Positions 4,544 to 27,399 of a stretch of DNA of 64,000 nt are shown in pieces. The stretch covers positions 3,968,001 to 4,032,000 of the forward strand of contig NZ_CP116942.1 in NCBI RefSeq assembly GCF_028532485.1. The letters run 5' to 3'. Made by a program: the position numbers and the translations under genes. The DNA comes from Iamia majanohamensis (GTDB lineage Bacteria > Actinomycetota > Acidimicrobiia > Acidimicrobiales > Iamiaceae). Each line of letters opens with the position of its first letter. Positions within the stretch are counted from its first letter, which is position 1. The notes under the pieces are model-generated. The model saw only the letters and a list, made by a program, of their open reading frames with translations. It searched no databases and was not told where the DNA came from.

Positions 4544-4951
4544 GTGGAGACGGCCGAGGCCCGCCGCCGGGTGGCTGCGGCGCGCGTGGGTCACCTGGCC
4601 ACGGTGACGCCCGAGGGCCGGCCCCACCTCGTCCCCTGCTGCTTCGCCCTGGTCGACGACGCCCTGGTGTCGGCCGTCGACGGCAAGCCCAAGTCGACCA
4701 CCGCGCTGCGGCGCCTGGCCAACGTGGAGGCCCACCCCGCGGTGACGCTGCTGGTGGACCACTACGACGACGGGGACTGGTCGGCCCTGTGGTGGGTGCG
4801 GGTCGACGGTCGGGCCCGGGTGGTGCGGGACGGCCCCGAGCGCGAGCGCGGCCTCGACGCCCTCGGGGCCAAGCACCGGCAGTACCGGGAGGTGCGCCCG
4901 CCGGGCGCGCTCATCGTGGTCGAGGACCTCACCTGGCGGTCCTGGCCCTGA
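4544..4951 (+). CDS. PPOX-class (probably F420-dependent) oxidoreductase
   Basis: A 135-residue split-barrel flavin/F420-binding protein. The start is typical of the class (ARVGHLATVTPEGRPHLVPCCFAL), followed by KPKSTTALRRLANVEAHPAVTLLVDHY and a closing W-R-S-W motif, as in the TIGR03668-type PPOX proteins. The reaction is unknown; relatives reduce small quinones, biliverdin or xenobiotics with F420H2. GTG start 2 bp after the FetB-like stop suggests cotranscription with the transporter. Confidence 0.82.
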   Translation: METAEARRRVAAARVGHLATVTPEGRPHLVPCCFALVDDALVSAVDGKPKSTTALRRLANVEAHPAVTLLVDHYDDGDWSALWWVRVDGRARVVRDGPERERGLDALGAKHRQYREVRPPGALIVVEDLTWRSWP

Positions 4952-25128: not shown

Positions 25129-25626
25129 AAGTGAGCTGAGGTTGTCCGGATCTGCGCTGGCCCTGACAAAAAGTCGCTTGATCTGCGGTTTCATGCAAAG
25201 GCGTCCCGTCGAGCATTGGCCCGTCCTCATCCATTTCGTGGAGCTGGTGAGGGGCTGGCCCCTCGAGACGTTGTGGGAAACATCTGCTCACCCGACCTCG
25301 AGCACGACCGCCCACCCAGCCGCCATCCACACGGCGCACCCAGACCACGAGCCGGAGCCACGCGGCACCCGACCTCTATCGTCCACGTTCCCCAGAGCGA
25401 CAGATCAAGTCGGCCCACACTTGCAGGTTCGCCTTCGGGGGAGCCTGCGGCAGGTTCGCGCTCACCCCTTCGCTCGCTGCGGCAACCACGGAATGGACCC
25501 GTCTGTCACGGGTATCGATCTGGATCGGGCGACCGTCAGGCGCCGCAATCACCGCGCCGCGCTGCTGCGGGCCCCCTTGCGAGACGCCAGGTTGCGTCCC
25601 AGCGCTCGGGCCGGTCGGTTGTGTAC

Positions 25627-25650
25627 TTGCGCAATCGAAGTCAGACTTCG
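25627..25650. promoter_or_regulatory. Operator-like palindromes before the XRE gene
   Basis: TTGCGCAA (25627-25634) is followed at once by CGAAGTCAGACTTCG (25636-25650), a 6+3+6 inverted repeat. They end 4 bp before the XRE ATG. TTGCGCAA recurs in the promoter of the DUF3892 gene, suggesting one repressor acts at both. Confidence 0.6.
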
Positions 25651-25654
25651 TGCC

Positions 25655-25942
25655 ATGGCCCCGGACACGCTTGGACAACGAGTGAGGCGCGAGCGACTCG
25701 CACGACAGATCACGCAGCGGGAGCTTGCCGGAGCGATCGACGTGGGCGTGCCTTACATCTCGAAGATCGAGGCCGATCGCGAGACTCCCGCAGACGACAA
25801 GATCACGAAGCTTGCAAGAGCACTCGATATCGAGCCGGACGAACTGCTGCTCACTGCTCGCCGTGTCCCAGCCGACGTCTTGGAACGTCTTGCGTCCGAC
25901 CCGGCCCGAGGGCTCGAGTTCTTGCGGACCTGGAAGGACTAG
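25655..25942 (+). CDS. XRE-family transcriptional regulator
   Basis: A 95-residue Cro/C1-type repressor: residues 5-62 form the HTH (LGQRVRRERLARQITQRELAGAIDVGVPYISKIEADRE, then DKITKLARALDIEPDELLL). The ATG at 25655 gives the usual short N-terminus. Its stop overlaps the start of the ImmA/IrrE peptidase (TAGTG), so the two are translationally coupled. Such pairs (ImmR-ImmA, DdrO-IrrE) couple a repressor to a protease that cleaves it on a signal. GC content is below that of the flanking chromosome. Confidence 0.9.
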   Translation: MAPDTLGQRVRRERLARQITQRELAGAIDVGVPYISKIEADRETPADDKITKLARALDIEPDELLLTARRVPADVLERLASDPARGLEFLRTWKD

Positions 25943-26562
25943 TGGCCCGGCGCACATTCCCGCGTCGGGACGCCGCCCACGGCGTGACGGCAAGTCACGT
26001 TCTGGCGAAACACTCGGCTCAGACTGGGTGGGTCCCGGCGCTTCCAGTTCCGATCGACATGATCGTTGAGCACACCTACGGGCTCGAGATCCTCTGGGAG
26101 CCGATCGACGAGCCACCCGGGACGAAGGTCCTCGGCGCACTGGCGCCCTCGCTGAAGCGCATCGTGCTCAACGACCGGCATCTCGCCATGTTCGAGGGCT
26201 TCGTCGGGCCTGAGCGCTTCACGCTGGCCCATGAGCTTGCCCACTGGATCTACGACGCCGAGATGTCTGGGCAAGGCACCCTCGACTTCGACACCCCAGA
26301 TCAGACCTTCTGTTATTGGCGCGAAAGTGACTCGATCGATGAGACCACGCGGCTACGCGAGCTGAACGCAAACAAGCTGGCCGCCCATCTGATCCTCCCC
26401 GACGACCTCGTCCGAGCGGCAAACCTCGACCAAGTCCTCGCCAACTTCCGCGACACTGCTCGCCACTGGGGCGTCTCCCTCACGACTCTCCGCATCAAGC
26501 TCGACACACTCGGCCTCCTCGATAGCGGCGATCGCCAGCAGCTCGGGACGCTTGGTCTCTAG
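25942..26562 (+). CDS. ImmA/IrrE-family metallopeptidase
   Basis: A 206-residue zinc peptidase with HELAHWIYD (HExxH, residues about 97-101) and the downstream RELNANKLAAHLILP helix carrying the third-ligand region. The N-terminal part (PVPIDMIVEHTYGLEILWEPID, VLGALAPSLKRIVLND) is typical of the COG2856 family. GTG start in the TAGTG overlap with the XRE stop. The predicted substrate is the upstream repressor, by analogy with ImmA-ImmR and IrrE-DdrO. Confidence 0.92.
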   Translation: MARRTFPRRDAAHGVTASHVLAKHSAQTGWVPALPVPIDMIVEHTYGLEILWEPIDEPPGTKVLGALAPSLKRIVLNDRHLAMFEGFVGPERFTLAHELAHWIYDAEMSGQGTLDFDTPDQTFCYWRESDSIDETTRLRELNANKLAAHLILPDDLVRAANLDQVLANFRDTARHWGVSLTTLRIKLDTLGLLDSGDRQQLGTLGL

Positions 26563-26569
26563 GACAAGG

Positions 26570-26612
26570 TTGCGCCGATCACGCAACATTGCTAGGTTAG
26601 TGGTTGCGCAAC
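26570..26612 (+). promoter_or_regulatory. Promoter with embedded TTGCGC operators before the DUF3892 gene
   Basis: A -35 TTGCGC (26570-26575), 17-bp spacer and -10 TAGGTT (26593-26598) make a clean vegetative-type promoter. The -35 is half of an inverted repeat GTTGCG...CGCAAC (26569-26587), and the palindrome GTTGCGCAAC (26603-26612) lies just after the -10. A repressor binding these would block initiation; the XRE protein is the obvious candidate. Confidence 0.65.
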
Positions 26613-26647
26613 TGCGCAGACTCTCAACCCACCAAGGAGGTCCCCTC

Positions 26648-26899
26648 ATGGACCGAAGAGTGACCAAGACCGGCAAGGACTCGGAGGGCGACATCACGTC
26701 GCTCTGCGGAGCCTGGGGCTCCACCAGCAAGGCGACGGCCATCCGTGAGATCGAGGCCAGCTCGACGGCGTACTACGTCCAGGACATCTACAGCCGGAGG
26801 GCCGATGTCCACGTCGTGGCCGGCGCGACGGGCAAGTACCTCAGGACCGATCCGAACTCCAGCTGCAGCGACAACCTCGACAGCCTCCCGGCGTGCTGA
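26648..26899 (+). CDS. DUF3892-family small protein
   Basis: An 83-residue protein matching the DUF3892 pattern: VTKTGKDSEGDITSLCGAWG, then KATAIREIE, YYVQD and ATGKYLRTDPN, ending NLDSLPAC. The family has no established function. AAGGAGG lies 7 bp before the ATG, one of the best ribosome sites in the window. It is the first gene behind the operator-bearing promoter and probably the main target of the XRE-ImmA switch. Confidence 0.82.
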   Translation: MDRRVTKTGKDSEGDITSLCGAWGSTSKATAIREIEASSTAYYVQDIYSRRADVHVVAGATGKYLRTDPNSSCSDNLDSLPAC

Positions 26900-26940
26900 G
26901 CAACGCGTACGCCGAGCTACTGCCAGGAGGGAGGTGAACC

Positions 26941-27051
26941 ATGGCCAAGACCGTCAACAAGTCCTCGATCTCGGGGCGCTTCGTGTCGAGCCGACAGGTG
27001 GCACGCAGCCCCAAGACCACCTACAAGCAAACCGTGAAGAAGGGCAAGTAG
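26941..27051 (+). CDS. 36-residue basic peptide
   Basis: A tiny lysine/arginine-rich protein: MAKTVNKSSISGRFVSSRQV, then ARSPKTTYKQTVKKGK. The spacing S-x-x-S-G-R-F-V...P-K-T-T looks like a recurrent short family, but I cannot name it. GGAGGGAGGTGA precedes the ATG closely, so translation is well supported. It follows the DUF3892 gene by 41 bp and a terminator stem lies 23 bp after its stop, so the two form a short operon. Confidence 0.75.
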   Translation: MAKTVNKSSISGRFVSSRQVARSPKTTYKQTVKKGK

Positions 27052-27074
27052 GTGCCCGGCGGCCAGGCGGCCAG

Positions 27075-27102
27075 GGGGTCCGGCTGGGACAGGCCGGGCC
27101 CC
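27075..27102 (+). terminator. Terminator of the small-protein operon
   Basis: A 10-bp stem (27075-27084 with 27093-27102, one G-U pair) around the 8-nt loop TGGGACAG, followed by TTCGG. It lies 23 bp after the 36-residue peptide stop. Confidence 0.7.
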
Positions 27103-27180
27103 TTCGGTCGAATGATGACCTTAGCGATCCGATTCGTTGAGAGCGCGGGGCTGATCGCGATCGACGCCGGGTAGAACTGA

Positions 27181-27399
27181 GTCTCACGCCCCCGCCTCGC
27201 ACTGGAGATCGCCGACGATCTCATCGCGTACCCGATCCTCTCCGTGGCCGATGCTCATCGCCGACACGGACGCTCGAACCAAGCGAATCGCAACGCAGTG
27301 AGCTCGCTCGTCGACCTTGGGATCCTCGAGCCATACAGCGCCGCTCGCTACGACCGGCTCTACTGGAACAGACGCGTGTTCCAGGTCATCGAAGGCTGA
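27181..27399 (+). pseudogene. C-terminal remnant of a Fic-family protein
   Basis: An open stretch of 72 codons without a usable start. It reads LEIADDLIAYPILSVADAH, then ANRNAVSSLVDLGILEP, YDRLYWNRRVFQVIEG and a stop. This matches the winged-helix C-terminus of Fic AMP-transferases (SxxxAN-A-xx-LV-LGIL, then R-x-R-V/L-xx-I). The Fic core with HPFxxGNGR is absent. It probably marks the broken end of the inserted island. An opposite-strand frame here (27184-27423) is unconvincing. Confidence 0.6.

Follow-up and report, generated by a model that had tools for sequence, protein, structure and literature searches.

Within a 64-kb window (the whole stretch of DNA analyzed here, positions 3968001-4032000 of a single-contig host genome of 4.58 Mb), reading of the open reading frames together with Pfam matches reveals a forward-strand module of four genes in the order XRE, ImmA, DUF3892, and a 36-residue ORF. 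The first gene (25655-25942) encodes a putative repressor of 95 amino acids with an XRE-family helix-turn-helix (HTH_3, 3.1e-13), and the second (25942-26562, GTG start) an ImmA/IrrE-type zinc metallopeptidase of 206 amino acids (Peptidase_M78, 3.3e-10). The one-base overlap between them that had been claimed in the first-pass annotation was confirmed by direct reading and lies within TAGTG. The DUF3892 protein (26648-26899; 83 amino acids; PF13031, 6.6e-9, 36.6 bits against a cut-off of 22.3) is preceded by a directly read Shine-Dalgarno sequence, AAGGAGG (26634-26640), and both this sequence and that of the 36-residue ORF are good. The ORF (26941-27051) specifies a basic peptide, SSISGRFVS...SPKTT, of a family with the motif S[AS][IV]SG[RK][FY]V[ST]...P.TT; Pfam detects no domain in this peptide. 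A G+C-rich hairpin lacking a U tract (27068-27114, forward strand; -41.7 kcal/mol, z -2.1) follows the peptide gene and possibly constitutes the operon end; the terminator scan called nothing at this position. Downstream, a frame preceded by a stop codon (27186-27399, forward strand) and ending in ...LVDLGILEPYSAARYDRLYWNRRVFQVIEG before its own stop looks like what is left of the C-terminal part of a Fic protein; it has no Pfam match and no blastp match to Fic proteins of other loci. The G+C content of the module stretch is 62-66%, compared with 70-80% in the left flank, and an ImmA relative of similar closeness occurs once more among 296 genomes of the class. Because of this low G+C content and the rarity of close ImmA relatives, the module has very probably been acquired horizontally. 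In the whole genome collection, five ImmA-related loci were found, one of these distant, and no close relatives of ImmA were found in viral contigs and plasmids.

ImmA scores well above the gathering cut-off of PF06114 (40.3 bits; cut-off 22) and carries a HELAH motif at residues 97-101; H97, H101, and E140 are invariant in all 13 aligned sequences. A profile search of the PDB retrieves CapP (1.4e-14) and IrrE (5.5e-8), and the predicted structure, with a mean pLDDT of 84 and an unreliable segment at residues 110-126, likewise ranks CapP (Z 13.4) and IrrE (Z 11.7) above the next, unrelated fold (Z 5.0). Cys124 is located 16 residues before the zinc ligand Glu140, a spacing common to all five close homologues and CapP, and is assigned as a candidate cysteine switch by its position in the sequence. 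In VapB52, which has this 16-residue spacing too, zinc is coordinated by C229 and E245, and C229 acts as a "cysteine switch" for which opening on ssDNA has been proposed (PMC13273310). The C-terminus of ImmA aligns with IrrE residue 196, upstream of the GAF-like domain; the protein ends after an HTH-like region and, as it is missing that domain, was not classed as CapP proper. PprI without its GAF-like domain is not stimulated by ssDNA (PMC10904395). Since ImmA does not possess the domain that PprI needs for activation by ssDNA, the inducing signal may differ. Judged by these features of sequence and fold, a protease switch is well supported; ssDNA as its signal is only a lead.

Upstream of XRE, pattern matching places a 16-bp operator, TTGCGCAAGTACACAA (25619-25634, reverse strand), which also occurs in four homologous loci (L024, L025, L026, and L027). 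Its far arm, TTGTGT, presumably provides the -35 element of the XRE promoter (25619-25624, forward strand), with a presumed -10 element, CAGACT (25642-25647, forward strand), separated from the -35 by a 17-bp spacer and lying 7 nt 5′ of the XRE start codon. Because no more than 6-7 nt separate the -10 element from the start codon in four of the five homologous loci, the XRE transcript is probably leaderless. In the cargo promoter, operator 1, TTGCGCCGATCACGCAA (26570-26586, forward strand), is a 17-bp inverted repeat enclosing the -35 element TTGCGC (26570-26575), from which a 17-bp spacer leads to a presumed -10, TAGGTT (26593-26598, forward strand); operator 2, TTGCGCAACTGCGCAG (26604-26619, forward strand), lies immediately 3′ of the latter. 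The first-pass annotation had described a motif before XRE that returns in the DUF3892 promoter, with half-sites at the -35 and after the -10, and this arrangement was recovered, the motif TTGCGCAA being located at 25627 and 26604 and the repeat around the -35 at 26570-26586. A strict sigma-70 scan called no consensus promoter at the module, where the -10 boxes are weak; the promoter assignments derive from the matching layout in related loci.

These two copies of TTGCGCAA are the only ones in the window, where 0.13 are expected and none of 100 shuffles reached two; the genome contains seven, the window's two included. Four of the five copies outside the window were read; a transposase-like ORF accounts for three of these and 16S rRNA-like DNA for the other, and the fifth copy is at 3122424. 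The transposase-like ORF of 365 codons is present in three identical copies (L001, L002, and L003, corresponding to G000:C1:352650, 728218, and 766883), each with TTGCGCAA. When the extended 16-bp pattern is searched genome-wide, the XRE site is the sole perfect match and the cargo site is among five matches with one mismatch. A chance origin of the pair was rejected on the grounds of the expectation in the window, the genome count, the 16-bp pattern, and conservation in five loci. A genome-wide regulon of XRE is unsupported, there being no other perfect 16-bp site in the genome.

The four homologous XRE-ImmA pairs sharing the operator, three from Actinomycetota and one from Chloroflexota, originate from Dehalococcoidia (L024), palsa_555 (L025), a Ferrithrix MAG (L026), and an Acidimicrobiales MAG (L027), and their XRE proteins are 52-55% identical to that of the window. 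In all five loci, the full operator conforms to TTGCG-N6-(N)RCAA over 16 bp, from which cargo operator 1 of the window departs slightly, being one base longer at 17 bp; each locus has one operator 5′ of XRE and two 3′ of ImmA, ahead of the gene that follows. The XRE-side operators of the window, L024, L025, L026, and L027 are TTGCGCAAGTACACAA, TTGCGCAAGCGCACAA, TTGCGCAAGTACACAA, TTGCGCAATCGCACAA, and TTGCGCAATCACACAA, respectively. Across the five loci compared, cargo operator 1 encloses the -35 (TTGCGC) and operator 2 comes after the -10; the 17-bp spacer and a TANNNT -10 element are found in four, the spacer of L026 measuring 19 bp. Elsewhere in 99 kb of source sequence around the homologous loci, TTGCGCAA is absent. 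This conservation in five of five loci lends comparative support to the earlier proposal that a single kind of operator may serve both self-control of XRE and control of the cargo.

Each of the four homologous loci retains one or more of the cargo types present in the window. L024 encodes a DUF3892 protein (72% identical), then a basic peptide of 43 amino acids; L025 a DyP-type peroxidase (PF20628, 1.7e-24) and DUF3892 (1.2e-7); L026 a window-type peptide (82% over 33 residues) followed by an OLD/AriA-like ATPase and a type II methyltransferase; and L027 a DUF3892 gene cut at the contig end. The 43-residue peptide of L024 (L024:5998-6129, MADRRAGRAGPHVPSKGG...) shows no sequence relationship to that of the window. 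Contrary to the earlier reading, in which DUF3892 and the peptide were the targets, the cargo is not fixed, as it also comprises a DyP-type peroxidase and unrelated basic peptides. For all four module genes dN is below dS (0.18 and 0.79, respectively, over the 36 codons of the peptide and its L026 homologue).

These data bear on two other explanations of the locus. The first is a type II toxin-antitoxin system, in which XRE would be the antitoxin, ImmA the toxin, DUF3892 and the peptide hitchhikers, and the operators a means of ordinary conditional autoregulation; the sparse and mobile distribution would suit such a system, and XRE matches antitoxin models such as Y4mF, though below cut-off. 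Overlapping small XRE and M78 genes were reportedly predicted to be toxin-antitoxin pairs by Makarova and co-workers in 2009 on the basis of gene neighbourhoods. A bare pair of this type, however, does not need the two operators that occupy a separate downstream promoter at five of five loci; moreover, the nearest solved relatives of ImmA are repressor-cleaving proteases, and the ImmRA pair of Streptococcus mutans acted as repressor and antirepressor instead of as a toxin-antitoxin system (PMC10233336). We therefore consider this explanation very unlikely. The second, which we judge decidedly unlikely, regards the module as the relic of a mobile-element or prophage control region of the ImmR/ImmA type, once in charge of transfer or lysogeny and now of leftovers. 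Matches of XRE and ImmA to phage regulator families, relatives on plasmids and viral contigs, and the lowered G+C content all agree with such a history, yet the window ORFs adjoining the module include no integrase, relaxase, or structural gene, and the cargo is retained in distant phyla under dedicated operators and with dN below dS.

The structure of DUF3892 is predicted with confidence (pLDDT 92); a fold search of the PDB returned nothing at E <= 0.001, the best match being VIA with Z 4.6. The lipocone paper proposes for DUF3892 a dsRBD/HPF-like fold that would sense RNA induced by viruses or ribosomes that have been modified, and describes its fusion to Min-Wnt effectors and a predicted antiviral function (PMC12419801). 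Both targets had been called unstudied, a description that has to be amended inasmuch as DUF3892 was already predicted to take part in antiviral conflict and the peptide is one member of a broader family found at the head of defence operons. Phages yielded one DUF3892 match, in a cyanophage, and PADLOC defence models matched neither DUF3892 nor the peptide. Among 23 DUF3892-seeded loci, seven (L013, L040, L042, L044, L050, L052, and L056) have XRE-ImmA beside DUF3892, mostly in divergent orientation and only distantly related to the window pair; the two proteins are fused in L050, and L040 and L042 are close relatives of one another. The other 16 gave no ImmA; for seven of the 23 loci the flank was only ~1.5 kb long. 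As a background, 60 genomes of the class (~158 Mb) contain 37 M78 matches, that is, one per ~4 Mb or ~0.2% per 8-kb stretch, a frequency that may be higher on plasmids. The divergent promoters bear other palindromes, such as TATAGTGATCACTATA in L042 and CAATTGCTATATAGCAATTG in L061, in line with each repressor recognizing an operator of its own; L044 and L056 show no clear one. A short basic peptide unrelated to that of the window, MAGRRNSEVTSRKAASAASKVLRNPRSSKAAKSAAASALTQRPNRKK, is encoded 5′ of DUF3892 in L052 (about 4790-4940), and on the Sulfitobacter-type plasmids a second, diverged DUF3892 gene comes after the first (L040:4361-4648 and L042:4356-4643).

On alphaproteobacterial plasmids, other XRE-ImmA pairs adjoin DUF3892 and/or the peptide, so that the gene set, whose conservation elsewhere the earlier reading had made decisive, has been found both there and in the homologous loci. 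A tblastn search of plasmids and phages with the window peptide alone gave nothing; the plasmid relatives emerged only via a doubled alphaproteobacterial form, SAISGRYVT...SPRTTVRE, which lies 5′ of DUF3892 on Sphingorhabdus, Sphingobium, and Novosphingobium plasmids and 3′ of DUF3892 on a Paracoccus plasmid. A search with the doubled peptide retrieved 50 plasmid records, and the family profile was built on ten sequences, that of the window included. In 22 peptide loci that were read, a non-random set picked for diversity, the regulators are XRE-ImmA in seven (weak and 1 kb away in L057), WYL in four (L064, L066, L067, and L073), Xre/RES in two (L058 and L063), and none of these in nine. The genes located 3′ of the peptide comprise CBASS in L059 (SMODS 1.8e-52, cyclase 1.5e-195, 2TM effector 2e-77) and, by annotation, in L063; Gabija in L057 (GajA 2e-240, GajB 3e-128), behind a toxin-antitoxin pair; TIR proteins in L064 (1.3e-14), L073 (8.8e-8), and, by annotation, L066 and L067; multiubiquitin-ThiF in L058; and the small domains DUF1883 and DUF2188. 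On four Hyphomicrobiales plasmids (L066, L067, L073, and L064), a WYL regulator, an SGRYVT peptide, and a TIR protein occur in series, constituting a recurring TIR defence-type operon. WYL proteins (CapW/BrxR), like CapH+CapP, are known to control immune operons in response to DNA damage (PMC13373217). That the peptide recurs directly 5′ of CBASS, Gabija, and TIR genes, with regulators of three kinds, suggests that it is a small component of general use in bacterial immunity. Many copies carry no annotation, which would explain why the family has been missed, and a literature search covering open-access papers gave none on the motif "SGRYVT", weak evidence of novelty. It is a realistic, if tentative, possibility that the peptide represents an undescribed family which many defence operons induced by stress (CBASS, Gabija, TIR, ubiquitin-like, DUF3892) share as their first component, whatever the regulator, and which acts as a common accessory to the effectors after it, e.g., as their sensor, chaperone, or antitoxin.

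The defence genes beside the peptide also weigh on a further explanation, according to which the module would respond to oxidative or radiation stress instead of phages, with ImmA acting as IrrE does in Deinococcus and the cargo protecting proteins or nucleic acids. IrrE/PprI is indeed the second-best relative of ImmA, and DyP-type peroxidase is cargo in L025, a DyP-like gene (assigned by sequence reading) being found 3′ of DUF3892 in L013. Genome G060 holds both of these loci (L025:2932-4634 and L013:1495-2400), so that DUF3892 is paired there twice, with a gene that is DyP-like or encodes a DyP-type peroxidase, and the XRE-ImmA alongside is a different one each time. Relatives of the peptide, in contrast, accompany CBASS, Gabija, and TIR effectors, and the rarity and mobility of the set (DUF3892 occurs in seven of 296 genomes of the class) are not those of a core stress response; a stress module of this kind seems rather unlikely to us.

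On balance, it is likely that the locus represents a horizontally acquired, self-contained, protease-switched operon, in which a CapH/CapP-like switch governs its own expression and that of the two neighbouring genes, an operon with a probably defensive role. From the genes, the operators and their conservation, the active-site residues, and the repeated association with DUF3892, with the peptide, and with defence genes, we infer the binding, cleavage, signal, and cargo function as follows. XRE, probably a dimer, would bind the inverted repeat TTGCG-N6-(N)RCAA; the operator on its own leaderless promoter would lead to autoregulation, while the two operators on the -35 and after the -10 would keep DUF3892 and the 36-residue peptide silent. 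ImmA, presumably coupled translationally to XRE, is probably held off by a cysteine-switch loop in which Cys124 binds the zinc. A stress signal from inside the cell, for which a link to DNA damage or phage attack is most plausible, would open ImmA, the opened protease would cut XRE, and a burst of cargo expression would ensue and end once autoregulated XRE accumulates again. The cargo would most likely serve in defence against phages or stress, where DUF3892 may contact RNA or ribosomes, and a defence role of the module is probable. Taken as a whole, the earlier interpretation is partly supported and mostly right, its regulatory part drawing more support from the comparison of loci than could be foreseen from the sequence alone. 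The operator architecture is kept across two phyla, and its three sites form a system suited to binding and cleavage assays.

Several known systems resemble the module. According to papers that cite its original description, CapH+CapP ("controller of adjacent pathways", found with CBASS and other immune operons) likewise consists of a gene for a small XRE-type repressor followed by one for an M78 zinc protease, adjoining the promoter of an immune-type operon; the cargo here is DUF3892 and the peptide, not a cyclase system. CapP is the best match of ImmA in sequence and fold and shares HExxH, Glu, and the switch Cys at a 16-residue spacing, but it has a GAF-like domain absent from ImmA, and identity in the structural alignment is 22%. 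DdrO and IrrE/PprI of Deinococcus also form a pair in which a protease relieves a repressor, and the peptidase fold is shared (Z 11.7); PprI, however, has a GAF-like domain that ImmA does not, and the repressor there binds RDRM motifs at many DNA-damage-response genes while the operator described here is confined to the module locus. ImmR and ImmA of ICEBs1 and TnSmu1 are similarly a two-gene repressor/antirepressor pair, devoted to the control of mobile-element transfer, in contrast to the module, by which no transfer genes are seen. With the DUF3892-Min-Wnt fusions the module has PF13031 membership in common, its DUF3892 being a free-standing protein of 83 amino acids without an effector domain. 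With its compact cargo, consisting of DUF3892 and a tiny peptide, the module would broaden the range of proteolytic switches typified by CapH/CapP and DdrO/PprI.
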